Made by a program: the position numbers and the translations under genes
The notes under the pieces: generated by a model
What the model was told of the DNA's origin: nothing
Databases searched by the model: none
The model's input: only the letters and a program-made list of their open reading frames with translations
Virus record (IMG/VR): IMGVR_UViG_3300020084_000030
Location: 1 to 43,801 of that record
Length of the DNA: 43,801 nucleotides
From: a virus
Reading direction: 5' to 3' (one strand)
Shown: in pieces, positions 3,843 through 18,956 of the stretch
Position numbering within the stretch: the first letter of the stretch is position 1
How the letters are laid out: every line of letters begins with the position of its first letter

Positions 3843-4655
3843 TTATCCGATTAGGAAGTTAGGTGGTAATTCATACTCTGATTGCATTCTTGCTTCAATG
3901 TCTTCTATCTCTGTTTTGCCTTCCTCATACATTTTCTCTCCATTGAGAGATACTCCACCAGGAAGTTGGACGCCATTAAACTTGATTAGATTCTGTCCCC
4001 ACTGTTTTTTAATTTGAGCAGTAACATAACGTTTGAGAAAGCTATCATTGTATATCTTAACGTGGTCATTTGGATTGAGTGCTCTATAGCATTCAATAAC
4101 AATCCATCTATCCTTTGCAATATATTTTGGATCGTAGTCAATATACAAACGATTCTGTCGTTTTGTGTATCTCAACTGAATCATAGATCCAGTATTTAAA
4201 ACCATATCAAGTGTCTCAAGATATGATTTGGTCATGTAGTAGTTTAAAATATCTAATGACCCAAATGCATATAAATCATTAAGAAACATCTGATATTCAA
4301 TACCAAATAAGTCACCACGAATAGTAGAAGAAACAAATGAAAATAATCTTTCTACACCGATTACGTGATCGGGTACTTCTAGATAATTGTTACGCTCTTC
4401 CCAAGAGTCATTGTTAGGAGCAGTTGTAGTTGTATTACTTGTTTGGAATCTATTTACATCTGCTTGAGTAAATTTGTGCTTGAGAAACATTTTCTCAACA
4501 CCATCAAAATGTCTATCATTAAAATACTGCAAAGACATATCAATGATGTCTTCAATTTGGTCATCATCGACATTGATTTCTAAAATTGGAGCTCCCAGTC
4601 TACGGAGGCAAAAATCTTTCAACTCCTCTCGTGTTGCTGGTTGAGATTTGGACAT
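3843..4655 (-). CDS. 13: Neck protein gp13 (head completion)
   Basis: This 270-aa protein matches T4 gp13 (309 aa). The N-terminus TREELKDFCLRRLGAPILEI parallels T4 KELKDVILRRLGAPI. The C-terminus has LPGGVSLNGEKMYEEG and ends in PPNFLIG, parallel to T4 LPGGVTIDGQ and DPPFGILVG. Between these lie HFDGVEKMF and WIVIECYRALNP. The protein adds to the portal vertex after packaging and is needed for tail joining. The central part is shorter than in T4 and carries a Thr/Asn-rich loop (NTTTTAPNNDS). A late promoter lies 24 nt upstream and overlaps the stop of the preceding gene, so gp13-14-15-16 form one late unit. Confidence 0.95.
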   Translation of the reverse strand: MSKSQPATREELKDFCLRRLGAPILEINVDDDQIEDIIDMSLQYFNDRHFDGVEKMFLKHKFTQADVNRFQTSNTTTTAPNNDSWEERNNYLEVPDHVIGVERLFSFVSSTIRGDLFGIEYQMFLNDLYAFGSLDILNYYMTKSYLETLDMVLNTGSMIQLRYTKRQNRLYIDYDPKYIAKDRWIVIECYRALNPNDHVKIYNDSFLKRYVTAQIKKQWGQNLIKFNGVQLPGGVSLNGEKMYEEGKTEIEDIEARMQSEYELPPNFLIG

Positions 4656-4679: not shown

Positions 4680-4687
4680 TATTTATT
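4680..4687 (-). promoter_or_regulatory. Late promoter octamer AATAAATA before gp13
   Basis: The minus strand reads TAATAAATACAT, 24 nt before the gp13 ATG at 4655. It overlaps the TAA stop of the U32/methyltransferase gene, a common layout in this window. Confidence 0.6.
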
Positions 4688-6401
4688 ATTTTTCTAATAC
4701 GAATATCTGTAATCCATTCCAAAAACTATTCACATCTTCAACGACTGTTGTTAAAATTTTTCTATCAAACAATACTTTCAATTTATTTTGTTGTATAAAA
4801 TTGTAACTTGAATACACAACTCCATCAAAGTTGGCATCATCTAATACCAAAATAAATTTGTCATCCAACAATGGCAACATATGATTCAATGATTCTAATT
4901 GACCTTCTGGCGAATGGTCTGAGTCATAGAAAATTACATTTGGTTTATGACCATTGAAATCTTCTGCTGATAAATCAGTAACTGACTTCTCGATAAAAGT
5001 ATCAGAATCTTTTGCTAAGTGTTTCCAATTATATTTAAATTCTTCCTTTGGTGATTGATATTCTTTCCAGGGCACGTAATCCATCATTGGTTTAACATTC
5101 TCTGAAAAGTTATCAACGGCAAAGGATACGATATTATTATCTTCTGTGGCAGCAAAAAATGTGCTACCCATAAAACTGCCAGTTTCTAGGTAAGTTACAT
5201 CTTCATTATCACACAAACTATTTAAGAAATGTTTTACTAAATCAGATGATAGTCCTTGAATTTTTTTAAATTTATATTTTGAATCTTTTAGATATGCTTT
5301 GTCGATAGCATTTAAACAAATAGAAACTAATCTATCTGTGTATTCTGTATGTGATTTTTTGAAATAAGTATTGACTACTGCTTCACAATAATTGCAATCC
5401 CAACAATCAAACTTACAAGTTTTAATTTTTTCTCTCCACAAATCAATTGGTTTTTCTTTTAATTCAATATTGTCGGAATACTTTTTAAATTGTGGAAACA
5501 TGTATTCAACATCTTTAGACCATCGATGAATTAAATCCATCGATTCTTCTAGTCTAGTAGCTGATTCTCTGCCATGTAATTTAAATACATCTATTCCTAA
5601 ATTTAAAAATTCTTCCCAGTCTGCTTTCCACGGTGGAAGATTGGCAGCTTTAAGTGAAGTTGCAGAATCTTCTAAATCCCACTTAGAACAAGAAACTCTG
5701 CTGATGGGATTATTAAAATATTGCGACTCTGGAAATTGTCTAGTGCTATTATAATGATAGTGCTCTGGCATGATAGGACATCCACCCCAACAACCTTCAT
5801 TAACTAGTAATGAAATCTTTACTGGTTTACCTATAGAAGCACAATAATCTTTAGCTTCTTTAATGCGAATTAAAGAATCTCTATCTCTCATCAAATCTCT
5901 ATCGAGATTGATGTATTGAAATCCTGCTTTTGCTAAGGATACAACCTCATTAGGTCTAGTAACTTCCCTCAAGATAGTATTTTTTACATATAAATCTGGA
6001 AATTCTTTTTGAATTTGTCCAGTCATTAACCAAGATGTATGTGGAATAGTAGCAATCTTTACCCCAACTTCATACAAGTATGTAAAATTTTCAATAAAAA
6101 TATCTAAATTTTCTTGTGTTGGTCTAACGTGAATGTTATTAAAAGTTGCTGAAAGAGGTATTCCAGTTTCATTACTGATGTATAATGCTTGCTTGATTAC
6201 AGCAACATCTGCTTCCTCACCACCAATAAAAGTTTCTCCCATTGCATCTTGAGCAAATGGGGGAATCCTACTAGTAAAGTATAAATCAAAAATATAATCT
6301 GAATGCTGCTTTAAAAATGGTATAAAAATACTATCAATAAATTCAGGAGATAGTTTGGGATTTATCGGTAGACTGAAGACTTTTTGTTTCACTTGTGACA
6401 T
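4686..6401 (-). CDS. U32-family-like TIM-barrel protein with C-terminal class I methyltransferase domain
   Basis: This is a 571-aa two-part protein. Residues about 5-330 resemble U32-family proteins, the Fe-S TIM-barrel group that includes UbiU/UbiV and RNA hydroxylases RlhA and TrhP. The resemblance rests on AGFQYINLDRDLMRDRDSL, then KISLLVNEGCWGGCPIMPEH with two Cys, a further RVSCSKW Cys and FKLHGRES. A cluster CKFDCWDCNYC (about residues 338-348) could complete a metal site. Residues about 390-571 look like a class I SAM-dependent methyltransferase: YLETGSFMGSTFFAA (motif I), VIFYDSDHSPEGQLESL and FILVLDDANFDG. The start is the ATG at 6401 with GAGGAG seven bases upstream; an in-frame TTG 15 bases earlier overlaps that ribosome site and is unlikely. 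The substrate is unknown. Modification of RNA, protein or a glycan are all open. Confidence 0.75.
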   Translation of the reverse strand: MSQVKQKVFSLPINPKLSPEFIDSIFIPFLKQHSDYIFDLYFTSRIPPFAQDAMGETFIGGEEADVAVIKQALYISNETGIPLSATFNNIHVRPTQENLDIFIENFTYLYEVGVKIATIPHTSWLMTGQIQKEFPDLYVKNTILREVTRPNEVVSLAKAGFQYINLDRDLMRDRDSLIRIKEAKDYCASIGKPVKISLLVNEGCWGGCPIMPEHYHYNSTRQFPESQYFNNPISRVSCSKWDLEDSATSLKAANLPPWKADWEEFLNLGIDVFKLHGRESATRLEESMDLIHRWSKDVEYMFPQFKKYSDNIELKEKPIDLWREKIKTCKFDCWDCNYCEAVVNTYFKKSHTEYTDRLVSICLNAIDKAYLKDSKYKFKKIQGLSSDLVKHFLNSLCDNEDVTYLETGSFMGSTFFAATEDNNIVSFAVDNFSENVKPMMDYVPWKEYQSPKEEFKYNWKHLAKDSDTFIEKSVTDLSAEDFNGHKPNVIFYDSDHSPEGQLESLNHMLPLLDDKFILVLDDANFDGVVYSSYNFIQQNKLKVLFDRKILTTVVEDVNSFWNGLQIFVLEK

Positions 6402-7128
6402 CACTATTCTCCTCAAGGAATTTATTATTTGGAATTTCGTCTCTTAAAAACCTTACTGTTTTTTCCGAATTTAATTTAAGTTGATCTACGCCAGCATTAA
6501 CTGCACCTGCATAACTCAATGCAAGTTGCAAAGTCTTAACTTGGTCTTCTTCTGGCATTTGTAGAATAGCATCTAAATTACCAGCTCCTAATCTTCCACT
6601 GGTAATAATATCTATAGAAGTTTGTTTTGCCATTCTGGCAATCCAATACTTGTGCTCTTCTTCATCATCTTGCTCGAAGAATTTATCTGCTTCTTCAACG
6701 CTTCCGCAATTTTGTTTCAACCAATCTAAGAAATAGCGCATTTCTATGTGGCATTGTTTTATTTTTTTATGCCACACTCTTAAATCTAAAAGAATATCAT
6801 CTAATTCTATTTCAAGCAATTTCCTTTCGTAGTCATCCTCTGACTTTTCAATATTATTTTTTATTTTTTCTATTTCTAATTCACACTTTCTCACGGAAAT
6901 TTTAATTTTCTCAAGAGAATGTTTTCTTGAATTGAGTTCAATTAAGGTTTGTCTTACTTGTCTATAAAAAGTAGGATGAGACCCAGAAACAAAATGATTA
7001 CACTGAAACTCTGTCTGGGGAAATGGTGTATCTACTGATTTTTCTATGAGATACTCTTCAAATTCATCATACGCGAAGTGATTCGATTCTGAGTCTATTT
7101 TCATTAAATATTCTTTGTCCATTGGCAT
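6343..7128 (-). CDS. Coiled-coil protein, unknown function
   Basis: This 261-aa protein has no family I recognise. The N-terminus (about residues 9-50) is acidic and aromatic (FAYDEFEEYLIEKS, TPFPQTEFQCNHFV). Residues about 60-135 are strongly heptad-like and charged (SLEKIKISVRKCELEIEKIK), predicting a coiled coil. The C-terminal half is helical (LGAGNLDAILQMPEEDQVK, LSYAGAVNAGVDQL) and ends in a polar tail. Possible starts are the ATG at 7128, 7122 or 7104; none has a good ribosome site, and 7104 (MKIDSES) would reduce the overlap with the upstream gene from 62 to 38 bases. It overlaps the downstream U32/methyltransferase gene by 59 bases, so the products may act together. A fibre-assembly chaperone role is possible but only inferred. 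Confidence 0.7.
   Translation of the reverse strand: MPMDKEYLMKIDSESNHFAYDEFEEYLIEKSVDTPFPQTEFQCNHFVSGSHPTFYRQVRQTLIELNSRKHSLEKIKISVRKCELEIEKIKNNIEKSEDDYERKLLEIELDDILLDLRVWHKKIKQCHIEMRYFLDWLKQNCGSVEEADKFFEQDDEEEHKYWIARMAKQTSIDIITSGRLGAGNLDAILQMPEEDQVKTLQLALSYAGAVNAGVDQLKLNSEKTVRFLRDEIPNNKFLEENSDVTSETKSLQSTDKSQTIS
6409..6414 (-). promoter_or_regulatory. Ribosome binding site fixing the start at 6401
   Basis: GAGGAG on the minus strand lies seven bases before the ATG at 6401. It lies inside the upstream gene and decides against the longer TTG-started frame. Confidence 0.7.
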
Positions 7129-7630
7129 TAATTCTATTCAATTCAACTGCTTGTTTGTAAGGCATTTCTATACCTAAGAAATCCTCATATAATATATTTA
7201 GGTCGTAAATACTATTGCAATTATCAAATGTTTGAATTAAAGATGTATTGAATCCAGGTGTGTTATTTTCAATTTCATCTTCAATCAATAATTTTGCAAA
7301 AATTTTCATGCAATTTACTACGCTAGCAACAGCCTCTTCAGATAAACTTACATAAACCTTCGTATCATAATTGCCAGTTTCAGGATTGAAAACATAGTCT
7401 TTCTTTTCTGCTCTAATTTCTGCCCACCACTTAGATCCTTTTACCGCAGTATTTCTATCTAAAGGAAAATGCTCTACACCGACAATATACTTATCGTAAT
7501 TTTCTTGAGTGCAACCTAAAATACTATACTTAATTTTAGTATCTTGAAACTCAAAAATTTTATTATCTAAAGCTTCCTGCGATACATCATGTAAATCAGC
7601 GAAGAAATAAATTAAATTATCGTAATTCAT
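7067..7630 (-). CDS. Conserved-type phage protein, unknown function
   Basis: This 187-aa, mildly acidic soluble protein has no membrane segment, signal peptide or catalytic signature. Features include an N-terminal aromatic segment (NYDNLIYFFADLHDVS), a beta-like stretch (KWWAEIRAEKKDYVFNPETG, about residues 68-87) and a helical second half (VASVVNCMKIFAKLLIEDE). The ATG at 7630 has AGAGG upstream and follows the kelch-like gene by 11 bases. Its 3' end overlaps the next gene by up to 62 bases, which suggests tight co-expression. It begins the three-gene non-morphogenetic block before gp13. I cannot name its function. Confidence 0.7.
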   Translation of the reverse strand: MNYDNLIYFFADLHDVSQEALDNKIFEFQDTKIKYSILGCTQENYDKYIVGVEHFPLDRNTAVKGSKWWAEIRAEKKDYVFNPETGNYDTKVYVSLSEEAVASVVNCMKIFAKLLIEDEIENNTPGFNTSLIQTFDNCNSIYDLNILYEDFLGIEMPYKQAVELNRINANGQRIFNENRLRIESLRV

Positions 7631-7641
7631 TTTACAACCTC

Positions 7642-8616
7642 TTAGTAGTTTGGTGCTGTTGTGCCATAAGTGGCATTAGTTATACTGTAAGCAGAAGCTA
7701 GTGATGCAGAAGACATTCCAGCATTTCCTCCAGGAGTAGACGATAAATCATTAGCAACATCATTAACATAACTTACTTTATACGTGTTATTATTTTGAGC
7801 ACCGTTGTAATGACCTAGACAATAACCTTTATTTGCACCAGACTGATAATTTTCTTCCCCCGCATTTTGCACACCGAAACTACTAATCTGAGCTCCAGTA
7901 TCATCATTATACTTAACCAGAGTAGCATTCAAGTTGCCACCATTTTTCATGTAGGAATATCCTTTGTAACTACTTAAAGCTTTACCCCAACCATCACTTC
8001 CAGGAGATGTTGTCCATGATGCATATGTTTCAGTGGACCATGTGAAGGATTGTGCAGTGCTACCTGTTTTATGCCACCCTCTGAATCTACCCTCAGATGT
8101 TGCTGTAAAATCATTTGAAGTTGCTGAGTTTTGTGGTCTCTGTGCAGATGTTGCCATCGTTTCAGTTTTCAAATCAAATCTATCAGTAGCAGCATTACCG
8201 CCACCAACGATATAAACCTTAGCTCCAGCATGTTCATAATCAACCATAGTTCCCAAATCGTTTCTCGAAACTGTCATATTCCAAGAAGCAGTAGCACCAC
8301 CTCTTGATGCCTCATTGGTCATATTCATAGACCAAGTTGTAGCAGAAGAACCCATGAAAGCATTTGCGATAGCATAAACATAAAAATATAAATCACTGTT
8401 TGCTCCGTCAGAATATGAAGCTGCTTCGCTCATTTTATCACCAAGGTTTGTTGTGATATCAGTTGAGTGATTAGTGCGATTCACATTTCTCCATGGGGAG
8501 GAATCTTTATATCCCCCCGCAACAAATCCGTGAGTAATGATTCTTGCTTGTGGCCAGGGGAGATCGCCCCCCGCTCTGGATGCTCCTAAATCTCTTAATG
8601 TAGTTAATCTTGGCAT
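7642..8616 (-). CDS. Kelch-like beta-propeller virion or fibre protein
   Basis: This 324-aa protein rich in Gly, Ser, Thr, Asn, Tyr and Trp begins MPRLTTLRDLGASRAGG, then ARIITHGFVAGGYKDSSPWR, a start I associate with a family common in marine T4-like phages. About four units of some 45-50 residues repeat a pattern of aromatic strand, GG turn and F/W strand with 'ST/TD' turn. Examples are KVYIVGGGNAATDRFDLKTE, SFTWSTETYASW, ATLVKYNDDTG and TYKVSYVNDVAND. This is kelch-like and suggests a propeller suited to surface binding. A strong ribosome site GGAGGT (8630-8625) precedes the ATG. Location at the end of the fibre cluster supports a virion role; the exact position in the particle is unknown. 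Confidence 0.7.
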   Translation of the reverse strand: MPRLTTLRDLGASRAGGDLPWPQARIITHGFVAGGYKDSSPWRNVNRTNHSTDITTNLGDKMSEAASYSDGANSDLYFYVYAIANAFMGSSATTWSMNMTNEASRGGATASWNMTVSRNDLGTMVDYEHAGAKVYIVGGGNAATDRFDLKTETMATSAQRPQNSATSNDFTATSEGRFRGWHKTGSTAQSFTWSTETYASWTTSPGSDGWGKALSSYKGYSYMKNGGNLNATLVKYNDDTGAQISSFGVQNAGEENYQSGANKGYCLGHYNGAQNNNTYKVSYVNDVANDLSSTPGGNAGMSSASLASAYSITNATYGTTAPNY

Positions 8617-15152: not shown

Positions 15153-15160
15153 TATTTATG
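15153..15160 (-). promoter_or_regulatory. Late promoter octamer CATAAATA
   Basis: The minus strand reads AATCATAAATATTTC and overlaps the TAA of the 491-aa fibre gene. It lies about 34 nt before the ATG at 15119. Confidence 0.55.
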
Positions 15161-16631
15161 ATTTAATGGCAGTAGCAACTACCTTTACAGTAGTTAAAGT
15201 TGTTGCTGATGCTGGTGTGACCAAAAGACGAATATTGCCAGAATTAATATCAGCAGAATACGAAGCAATATATGTATCAGATGCTATAGCATTTTGCTCA
15301 GTTATAGTTACATCAATGCCGTTGTGTATCAATAATAGTTTTGATACATGTGTATTATTTCCCGATTTTGCTTGAATCAAATATTCCACTGAAGAGAATG
15401 TGGAAGCAGGGAGGGGGAGAATTGGATATTGCGATGTTGACCCCGTTGTATTTGAAGCAGATGTATAAACAGCAACATTATTAACAGATAACATAGTAGC
15501 AGACGCAATTCCTAAAGTTGGGTCTGTTAATATAGGAGAGGTTAAAGTTTTGTTGGTTAAAGTTTCTACATTATTTAAAGTAGAAAGAGTGCCACTCGTA
15601 GGTAACGTTACATCCGTATTAGCAGTGGTTGTTACACTCAAAGTATGAGCACCAGTGTGTGTAAAATTACCGCCAAGAGTAATTGTTTTAGTGCCATTAT
15701 TTACACCAGTGCCACCGTAGGTTGGCGAAATAATTGTGCCATTCCAAACACCATTAGCAAGTGTTCCTACTGAAGTTAGATTGGAAGAAACAATTCCACT
15801 ACCTAATGCAGTCGATCCAATTACAGTAGTGCCATTAATCTTATAAGTTTTTCCTTCGGCAAGATTCCAACTTTCAGAAGAAGACCACGAAGTATATCCG
15901 TGACTATAAGTTAAAGTAACTCCAGTAGTGCCAACATTAAATCCAGACCCATCAGCGGCAGCTGCACTACTTGTGCCGTTAGCAATAATTACAACTTTAT
16001 CGGTGATTGCTAAATCAGTAGTACTAATTGTAGTGGTAGCACCTTGTACTAGCAAATCCCCAGTAATAGTTAAATTACCAGATATAGTTGCTAATGTGCC
16101 ATTATCTCCGATGATTGAATCAGTAAACTGATTGTCGGTGTCATTCCACTTTGTTAGTTTATTTTGAGAAAGATTATCGCCATTTTTAATAGCAACTGTT
16201 ACATCAATACTACCATCAAAACTTGTGCCAGATAGTCCTGTGCCAATGGTTAATGTTTTATCAATTGCTGCTTCGATAGTAATATTTTGACTACCATCAA
16301 ATGCAATACCGTTGATTGTTCTTGCTGTTGCTAATTTTGTTGCAGTATCAGCATTACCAACTAACGCACCAGTAAATGACTGTGAAAAAATATTAGCAAA
16401 TTTGAAAGAAGATGACCCAAGATTATAAGTGGTGTTAGCAGAAGGTAATACAGTAGCGCCAAAAGAAGCGTTGGACATATTTGCCCTTGCTATTTCATAA
16501 CCACCAGCGGTTACTCCATCATGCAACCTCAAAGCATAGTTGCTAAGATTTACTGATAACTCACCTTGTGCTCCAGTAAAGTTATTATTTTGTGTTGCAG
16601 TGCCTCTTCTAAACTGTACTTGGGTTGCCAT
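15156..16631 (-). CDS. Tail-fibre protein with Mtd-like N-terminal anchor and shared C-terminal domain
   Basis: This 491-aa protein opens with MATQVQFRRGTATQNNNFTG, then QGELSVNLSNYALRLHDG. This is the basic 'FRRGT...GELxVDxxxxxLRLHDG' anchor seen at the N-terminus of phage fibres and of the major tropism determinant. The shaft has many Thr/Asn/Gly strands (GNLTITGDLLVQGATTTIST). A module TTDLAITDKVVIIANG (about 199-214) is shared with the 1641-aa protein. Residues about 414-491 (EYLIQAKSGNNTHVSKLLLI, then IDVTITEQNAI and SADINSGNIRLLVTPAS) match the C-terminus of the 1646-aa protein. An AGGAAA ribosome site precedes the ATG. It probably forms one of several alternative fibres. Confidence 0.85.
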   Translation of the reverse strand: MATQVQFRRGTATQNNNFTGAQGELSVNLSNYALRLHDGVTAGGYEIARANMSNASFGATVLPSANTTYNLGSSSFKFANIFSQSFTGALVGNADTATKLATARTINGIAFDGSQNITIEAAIDKTLTIGTGLSGTSFDGSIDVTVAIKNGDNLSQNKLTKWNDTDNQFTDSIIGDNGTLATISGNLTITGDLLVQGATTTISTTDLAITDKVVIIANGTSSAAAADGSGFNVGTTGVTLTYSHGYTSWSSSESWNLAEGKTYKINGTTVIGSTALGSGIVSSNLTSVGTLANGVWNGTIISPTYGGTGVNNGTKTITLGGNFTHTGAHTLSVTTTANTDVTLPTSGTLSTLNNVETLTNKTLTSPILTDPTLGIASATMLSVNNVAVYTSASNTTGSTSQYPILPLPASTFSSVEYLIQAKSGNNTHVSKLLLIHNGIDVTITEQNAIASDTYIASYSADINSGNIRLLVTPASATTLTTVKVVATAIKS

Positions 16632-17456: not shown

Positions 17457-18956
17457 TCAGAATGTACCGCCATCCACGAGTGTGTTAATTAACTCAAAAG
17501 TGCCAGCGTTATTATTTAAAACTTGATTGGTTGCAGTGCCGAAGCTACCTAACCAAAGACCTTTCATCTGGACATTTGCTAATGTACCAGATAGTTGAGG
17601 ACCAGCGGCTTCAGTTGTATCATCTACAAATAAGAATCCAGTGTTTCCATCCCAGAAGATAGAAGATGTTTTTGCAGATGAGTCGTAGTAGTGGAATCTA
17701 AAACCACGGTCAGTCGAAGTTGCTGCTGATGGTGCAGCACCATTGACAGTGCCTAATTCTAAAACAGGGTCATCATATGTTGTGACGGTTGAATTAGAAG
17801 TAGTTGTGCTACCATTAACTGTTAAGTTACCAGAAACAGTTACGTTTGCTCCAGAAAGAGTAATAGCAGTTGATCCATCAGAAGCTTTAATATCATTGCC
17901 ATTTACTCTTAAATCACCTGCAACAGTAACATCATTACCACTATAAGTAATAGGAGAATTTACTAATTGGTCGTTAGTATTATCCCAACCCATAATAGTG
18001 TTATCAGTAAGAGCACCACCATTCTTTAGTTGAATATCATCAGCATTAACTGTAATACCGATACCAGCACCAACTGCTAAATCAACAGTTTGACCTTCGC
18101 TTGCTGAAGATGTCTTAGCAAGACCATCACCAGCAGTTACATCAGCAACATAGTTACCAGTGGTATCAGTGCCAAGAGCAACTGAGTTAGCTTCGATAGT
18201 TGCAGTTAGAGTTGCGTTAGCAAGGTCAGTGATAGTTACACTACCGCTTAAATCACCTGCAAGAGTGATTGTGAAATCTGCAACGTCGAAATCTAACTTT
18301 CCAGCACCGCCAGCATTATCTGTGTAGGTAACGGAAATGCCAGATTCGCTGTTGCTGCTAACCATAGCACCAACAATATCTTCAATTCTTTCTGCTGCAA
18401 TTGTTACTGCTCCATTCACAACAGAAAAATCTGAAGTCGGAAAATTAGCAACACCAGCGTTAGTATCTGTTGCCAATTCTGCAGCAATAGTAACTACGTT
18501 ATTGGTAATAGTTGTGTCAATACCTTCACCACCAGTAAAGGTGAGTGTTTCTCCTGTATTGATGGTATCTGTGCCAGTATCTCCAGCAATAGATAAATTA
18601 CTTACAACTTCTGCCCATGACATAACACCATTTACATCTGTCTTTAAGAAGTAATTTGCAGTAGGTGTTGCTGGAAGTGTGTAGGTAGTATTTGATGCTG
18701 AAGTATCTGGTGCTTTCAGTGAGACACTACCGCCACCACCAGCACCAGTTTTTGCGTGTAGTTTTACTGATTGCCCAGTAGTTGAATTTTCTTTAATCCA
18801 GTAGCGAGCAGACCCAAAAAATTTATTATTATTGGTTGTGCTATCAAGTCCCACATAAAAATTATATTCATCATTGACAAATGCTGGTTCACCTGCAGCT
18901 AATGCTGGGAGGTTTGCTTGCGTACCTCTTTTAAACTTAATCGTTGGTGCCGCCAT
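17457..18956 (-). CDS. Tail-fibre protein with basic N-terminal anchor
   Basis: This 499-aa protein begins MAAPTIKFKRGTQANLPALA and GEPAFVNDEYNFYVGLD, the anchor type of the neighbouring fibres. SVSLKAPDTSASNTTYTLPA follows (about residues 78-97), then GVMSWAEV, shared with the 245-aa protein. The shaft to about residue 350 is a run of Thr/Asn/Asp strands (TGTDTINTGETLTFTGGEG, DLSGSVTITDLANATLTATI). A VSGNLTVNGSTTTSNSTVTT and DDPVLELG block (about 375-402) is the counterpart of the modules in the 491- and 1641-aa proteins. The last 90 residues contain RGFRFHYYDSSAKTSSIFWD. It was probably duplicated from a common fibre ancestor. A TAGGAC ribosome site and CATAAATA late promoter lie upstream. 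Confidence 0.85.
   Translation of the reverse strand: MAAPTIKFKRGTQANLPALAAGEPAFVNDEYNFYVGLDSTTNNNKFFGSARYWIKENSTTGQSVKLHAKTGAGGGGSVSLKAPDTSASNTTYTLPATPTANYFLKTDVNGVMSWAEVVSNLSIAGDTGTDTINTGETLTFTGGEGIDTTITNNVVTIAAELATDTNAGVANFPTSDFSVVNGAVTIAAERIEDIVGAMVSSNSESGISVTYTDNAGGAGKLDFDVADFTITLAGDLSGSVTITDLANATLTATIEANSVALGTDTTGNYVADVTAGDGLAKTSSASEGQTVDLAVGAGIGITVNADDIQLKNGGALTDNTIMGWDNTNDQLVNSPITYSGNDVTVAGDLRVNGNDIKASDGSTAITLSGANVTVSGNLTVNGSTTTSNSTVTTYDDPVLELGTVNGAAPSAATSTDRGFRFHYYDSSAKTSSIFWDGNTGFLFVDDTTEAAGPQLSGTLANVQMKGLWLGSFGTATNQVLNNNAGTFELINTLVDGGTF

Follow-up and report, generated by a model that had tools for sequence, protein, structure and literature searches.

The window, by which we mean the whole 43.8 kb stretch of DNA that was analysed, is the record of a T4-like virus. 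In the direction of transcription its genes ran from baseplate gp8 through the fibre genes, GC351, GC352, GC353 and GC354 to the neck genes gp13 and gp14, the tail sheath stabiliser and the small terminase (Table 1). The GC354 open reading frame, for which the preliminary description had left the strand unstated, is real and lies on the minus strand. Its placement was also confirmed, with the fibre genes and GC351–GC353 on one side and neck gp13 on the other, and the two unassigned overlapping genes that had been noted behind it are GC353 (phrog_1409) and GC352 (phrog_1604).

Table 1. Features of the GC354 locus and its neighbours (positions in the window).
Feature	Position	Strand	Remarks
Neck protein gp13 (head-tail adaptor)	3843..4655	(-)	phrog_211; downstream neighbour of GC354
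GC354 CDS	4686..6401	(-)	571 aa; ATG at 6401; stop 4688-4686; T4-GC 354 / PHROG 1458
Predicted class I SAM-dependent methyltransferase domain	4689..5264	(-)	residues 380-571; PF13578, TrmR profile match, Foldseek
Methyltransferase motif I YLETGSFMGST	5160..5192	(-)	Y404, E406, G408, G412 invariant
Predicted U32-like (beta/alpha)8 domain	5367..6401	(-)	residues 1-345; AF2, Foldseek, hhalign
C-terminal Cys cluster C329-x3-C333-x2-C336-x2-C339	5385..5417	(-)	invariant; motif also in bacterial group A5
C238, third invariant Cys of the strand 7-8 insert	5688..5690	(-)	28-member alignment
First Cys pair C204-x3-C208	5778..5792	(-)	invariant, 28 family members; directly after barrel strand 7
GC353 (phrog_1409), module partner gene	6343..7128	(-)	overlaps GC354
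GC352 (phrog_1604), module partner gene	7067..7630	(-)	PHROG match, locus comparison
GC351 (phrog_1417), fibre-like, 'sericin 1 precursor-like'	7642..8616	(-)	linked to GC354; candidate substrate

Residues 54–571 of GC354 matched PHROG 1458 with an E value of 9e-221 in the PHROG profile comparison. A search for the same fusion in other phages found 123 deposited phage records with a hit, all of them cyanophages and all covering at least 80% of GC354. Among the cyanophage records listed its product name is hypothetical, and the P-SSM4 and P-HM2 annotations call the family T4-GC 354; the T4-GC clusters come from Sullivan et al. 2010 (PMC3037559). No assigned function was found for GC354 or PHROG 1458 in the deposited records and papers that were consulted, and no proteomics of the protein was found in the literature. 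Purifying selection was strong on both domains, with a median dN/dS of about 0.05 for the U32 part and about 0.08 for the methyltransferase.

A shallow alignment left the cysteines poorly modelled in the first fold of full-length GC354, and the N-terminal domain was refolded with a diverse alignment. The resulting AF2 model of residues 1–345 (pTM 0.85) showed eight strands alternating with helices, and the Cys-rich insert sat between strands 7 and 8. A Foldseek search covering 350,542 PDB chains gave 5d88, the U32 protein Mk0906, as the top match (E 2.5e-6, probability 1.00, target TM 0.57). The TIM barrel that had been proposed for this region is thus borne out by the model.

The GC354 family profile (A4) aligned with a bacterial U32-like group, A5, over 320 columns (hhalign probability 99.5, E 4e-23), of which 21% were identical. 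Group A5 in turn aligned with UbiU/UbiV and canonical U32 proteins (A6; probability 98.1, E 9e-14), and its member L243 scored above the Pfam U32 (PF01136) cut-off. The direct comparison of A4 with A6 was weak, so the U32 tie of the GC354 family rests on the intermediate group A5. In the Pfam scan, PF01136 gave no match over the cut-off for GC354 or four relatives. The residues essential in TrhP are E162, C170 and C177, that is, a Glu eight positions before the first Cys and a C-x6-C pair (PMC6599085). This signature is absent in GC354, which has I196 at the Glu position and C204-x3-C208 in place of C-x6-C. Because the direct comparison reached only 18.5% probability and the TrhP Glu and C-x6-C are absent, we place the N-terminal domain in a distant branch of the U32 superfamily, outside the canonical family, as judged from profiles and the predicted fold.

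Three other leads for GC354 were discarded. The Pfam and NCBIfam matches of the N-terminal domain (TEX47, Yippee, HisB) were dismissed as noise, and a phmmer search of the single GC354 sequence against the PDB, which returned solely aminotransferase matches at E 1.3, was set aside. A tblastn match in Flavobacterium phages was rejected together with the match to PHROG 13374, the aligned stretch being without most of the cysteines and part of a different kind of protein.

The Cys-rich and motif I strings of the preliminary description are present at residues 203–209 (GCWGGCP), 329–339 (CKFDCWDCNYC) and 404–414 (YLETGSFMGST). None of the three is a matter of chance. Seven cysteines (204, 208, 238, 329, 333, 336, and 339) were invariant in 28 diverse family members. 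Three of the seven lie in the barrel insert and four at the C-terminus of the barrel domain. Cys187 was rejected as a general cluster ligand, since it is kept in the cyanophage branch alone and the bacterial relatives carry Phe there. Of the 63 invariant residues, 29 were found where TIM barrels have their active sites, at the C-terminal strand ends, against 13 expected (p 4e-7). The seven invariant cysteines probably hold one or two Fe–S clusters.

For the C-terminal domain, PF13578 scored 26.4 bits on GC354 (E 1.4e-5), barely above the cut-off of 26.3, and 32.9 bits on the methyltransferase of a split-gene relative. In a PDB sequence-profile search with a profile of 22 phage methyltransferase domains, TrmR/YrrM of B. 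subtilis (5zw3) came first with an E value of 3.3e-5, in a partial match covering profile positions 70–167, and MW1564 (3ntv) came second with an E value of 0.08. The Foldseek neighbours of the domain were O-methyltransferases, including MeT1 and Rv0187. Asp493, Asp521, and Asp522 of GC354 aligned with TrmR positions that we take to be metal ligands, as in COMT-like enzymes generally, with the Asn of the D...D-N pattern replaced by Asp. The SAM-methyltransferase domain claimed earlier was upheld by the conserved motif I together with these Pfam, Foldseek, and TrmR matches, and by sequence comparison residues 380–571 are a class I methyltransferase related to the TrmR/COMT O-methyltransferases.

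Separate neighbouring genes, often overlapping, encode a U32 protein of ~346 aa and a methyltransferase of ~220–230 aa at about 60 loci from another phage group. These split-gene methyltransferases were 30–40% identical to the methyltransferase domain of GC354. As the two domains stand as separate adjacent genes in other phages, we regard their pairing as functional. In the tree of U32 domains, a branch supported at 100/100 had all the fused proteins, bar two truncated rows, to one side, which is consistent with a single fusion event. L120 and L121, which looked like stand-alone U32 genes within the fused clade, were rejected because they are cut off at the stretch end, and ten ORFs that seemed to be U32-only in the set seeded from L155 reach contig ends or come very close to them. 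A radical SAM protein (PF04055) was encoded directly upstream of the U32 gene in split-gene phages (L204:3994-4992, L218:3995-4999).

Some relatives carried the U32 domain without a methyltransferase or GC351, namely the phage relative L161/L157 and the bacterial relatives L158–L160. The first of these lies in a 224-kb phage (L161:4992-6104), close to the gene for an SPFH-domain protein, and L157:91-1200 lies on a contig binned as Cloacimonadota; a dCTP-deaminase-like gene (by eye) was also noted in this setting. When 155 genomes from a single class were surveyed, the family turned up solely in two already known Syntrophaceae genomes. The stand-alone Syntrophaceae relative (L159:2358-12201, L160:917-7235) was accompanied by another small U32-like protein (hhalign 96.7% to A5). 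GNATs, an apparent TauE-type permease, CysD, and CysNC were seen in the same neighbourhood (by eye except for one GNAT), together with an ATP-grasp protein and a possible sulfotransferase in L159 (by eye), and a sulfated-product pathway is possible there. L160 also held a second copy of the U32 relative, truncated at the contig end. In the Desulfobacterota contigs L258 and L260, U32-like genes with the CxxxCxxCxxC motif stood directly beside a class I methyltransferase gene (by eye). Two cyanophage-like contigs, L155 and L156, were binned within bacterial or archaeal MAGs (Dehalococcoidia, Euryarchaeota) and are probably misbinned virus DNA.

Comparison of the loci gave a module with the following layout: GC351 in one to several copies, GC352/GC353, a radical SAM gene in the split types, the U32 gene, and the methyltransferase. 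Starting from three different GC351 proteins, the U32 gene was found downstream of GC351 in every one of the 101 loci with enough sequence to be informative. Of the 190 U32 loci that were informative, 183 had GC351 upstream. Among the seven that did not, five were fused loci in which other genes lay between U32 and GC353, or GC353 was at or beyond the sequence edge; the remaining two U32 genes stand alone, one of them bacterial and the other on a phage contig of 224 kb. GC351, GC353, and GC354 each had 123 deposited records with the same organism breakdown, against 470 records for the gp14 neck gene, and GC351–GC354 is therefore an accessory cassette. P-SSM4, P-HM2, Syn33, and S-RIM2 are among the phages that have both GC351 and GC354.

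GC351 occurred in one to six tandem copies. Across 61 diverse sequences, G35, Y36, G59, Y68, K212, G253, E254, G260, Y270, Q274, G300, and S303 were invariant, and Y222 was kept in 60. The conserved tyrosines (Y36, Y68, Y270, and Y222) are candidates for modification, though a purely structural role could likewise account for their conservation. Two fibre proteins of the window (15159-16631 and 17460-18956) start with an Mtd_N domain (PF18454), which is the N-terminal domain of major tropism determinants. No T4-type late-promoter motif was found just upstream of the module; such motifs were rarer than chance in the window, and this search was therefore uninformative either way. In several contigs a gene for a DUF401-like membrane protein (PF04165 for L275) directly followed the U32-methyltransferase gene (L275:14744-15613, L287:12830-13780).

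The fibre-side position of the module was filled by other enzymes in other cyanophages. 2OG-Fe(II) oxygenases lie between denV and the fibre genes in S-SM1, Syn9, and S-RIM44, along with two flavin halogenases in Syn9 and S-RIM44, and the module profiles gave no match in these regions. The halogenases (PF04820, E 1e-97 to 1e-109), which belong to the enzyme class of VirX1, and the oxygenases (PF13759) fill the same fibre-denV slot in the U32-less Syn9 (L411) and S-RIM44 (L412). A 2OG oxygenase, halogenase, or DUF6445 gene also stood beside the module in 143 of 336 U32 loci. In two contigs flavin-dependent halogenases and 2OG-Fe(II) oxygenases of these same families lay between GC353 and the U32-methyltransferase (L065:1781-5998, L027:154-5998). 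From the contents of the slot (the U32 module, 2OG oxygenases, and halogenases), the most economical reading is that it holds enzymes modifying fibre-associated virion parts.

It is quite possible, if somewhat short of probable, that GC354 modifies a virion component associated with the fibre in two steps, hydroxylation and O-methylation. The U32-like barrel would install a hydroxyl group and the TrmR/COMT-like domain would then methylate that hydroxyl with SAM, presumably in this order. The most likely target would be a late component of the virion that belongs to the tail-fibre cassette, with GC351 as the first candidate and GC352 and GC353 as putative assembly or presentation partners. As TrhP, UbiU/UbiV, TrmR, and the halogenases act in aromatic chemistry, an aromatic target group is suggested. 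Of the three kinds of substrate named in the preliminary description, the gene neighbourhood speaks for a component of the virion or fibre rather than for RNA or a glycan. The linkage to GC351 is no proof of a substrate, and GC351 and GC354 could serve adsorption or assembly independently. Two-step modification had been raised in the preliminary description. The split U32/methyltransferase pairs, the trhP1/trhP2–trmR precedent, and the TrmR match argue for it, whereas the missing Pfam U32 match and canonical U32 signature argue against it.

The barrel might instead perform other Fe–S chemistry (redox, radical, electron-transfer, or structural), with the methyltransferase acting on its product or alone. 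The CxxxCxxCxxC motif and the missing canonical signature do set the GC354 family apart, and in split-type phages the module includes a radical SAM gene. However, the U32 proteins of known role in the literature that we found act in hydroxylation (PMC6599085, PMC6747719), and a hydroxyl is the product that would best suit a TrmR-like O-methyltransferase as partner, which makes this alternative unlikely.

The conserved module contained no glycosyltransferase or sugar-nucleotide gene. This result speaks against a small molecule or glycan (e.g., a sugar or phenolic group) on the fibre or host surface, and no protein residue, as the target, and we consider such a target rather improbable. It would nevertheless fit the hydroxylation of a small aromatic by UbiU/UbiV (PMC6747719), the presence of the MeT1 and Rv0187 O-methyltransferases among the structural neighbours, and the Syntrophaceae stand-alone relative, which sits with GNAT, ATP-grasp, and sulfate-activation-like genes.

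Modification of RNA, with hydroxylation and then O-methylation giving a 5-methoxyuridine-like base in the tRNA of host or phage, or altering a base of the ribosome, much as TrhP1/TrhP2 and TrmR act in B. subtilis, would agree with TrmR as the closest solved methyltransferase by sequence and with TrhP and RlhA as U32 proteins of RNA hydroxylation (PMC6599085), but it is decidedly improbable for a protein encoded among late virion genes, tied to a fibre-like gene, made up of two catalytic domains with no additional domain found, and matched to TrmR only in part. A tRNA target inside the window was unsupported, as no tRNA genes were found there.

With hydroxylation and O-methylation of a fibre component as the preferred reading of GC354, a wider proposal can be made, which is conceivable and rather doubtful. 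Cyanophages and some other large phages would carry an exchangeable cassette of aromatic-type enzymes (U32-O-methyltransferase, flavin halogenase, 2OG oxygenases, and radical SAM) that mature fibre-tip adhesins. Such a cassette would provide for two-step hydroxylation/O-methylation of a virion protein, and it would offer a natural substrate class for VirX1-type halogenases. In the table of PMC8407142 no natural substrate is entered for VirX1. As related halogenases occupy the same slot, the fibre side is where the natural substrate of this iodinating viral halogenase may be sought.

The U32 family is known for O2-independent or prephenate-dependent hydroxylation. GC354, a common marine virus protein named hypothetical, gains a testable enzyme identity from this analysis. 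If the reading is true, a U32-type hydroxylase and an O-methyltransferase serve phages in making a post-translationally modified adhesin, which would bear on host range in the most abundant phototrophs.

Among known systems, the VirX1-type halogenases and 2OG-Fe(II) oxygenases resemble GC354 in occupying the fibre-denV/neck slot or adjoining the U32 module, but the enzymes and their chemistry are unrelated to those of GC354. UbiU/UbiV, the O2-independent ubiquinone hydroxylases, are U32 proteins and distant profile kin of GC354. Their four cysteines hold a [4Fe-4S] cluster, with the spacing CX6CX16CX38C in UbiU and CXnCX12CX3C in UbiV (PMC6747719). Unlike GC354, they form a heterodimer acting on a quinone precursor; GC354 spaces its cysteines differently, has an invariant core set of three where UbiU/UbiV have four, and carries a further cluster of four Cys.

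The A5 group of the Desulfobacterota has the same layout as GC354 (NxxCxxxC, a later Cys, an FK..GR strand, and CxxxCxxCxxC), and some of its genes (L258, L260) adjoin a class I methyltransferase gene, as in the phage pairing. In contrast to GC354, the group is chromosomal, distant in sequence, and without methyltransferase fusion.

In B. subtilis, yrrM (trmR), yrrN (trhP2), and yrrO (trhP1) share one operon, whose products form ho5U and subsequently mo5U in tRNA; in Phytophthora, TrhO is found fused to TrmR (PMC6599085). As in the phage, a U32-type hydroxylation protein is paired in the B. subtilis operon with a COMT-like O-methyltransferase. The phage enzyme differs in that both domains are joined in one chain or encoded by neighbouring phage genes, its U32 part is a distant branch with an extra C-terminal four-Cys motif, and the gene lies in a fibre cassette with no translation-gene context. 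In the literature that we searched, which was mostly open-access, no phage-encoded U32-O-methyltransferase fusion tied to a fibre-like gene was found described. The combination of a U32 hydroxylase with an O-methyltransferase is already known for tRNA, and what appears to be new here is a phage fusion from a distant U32 branch that is linked to a fibre-like gene.
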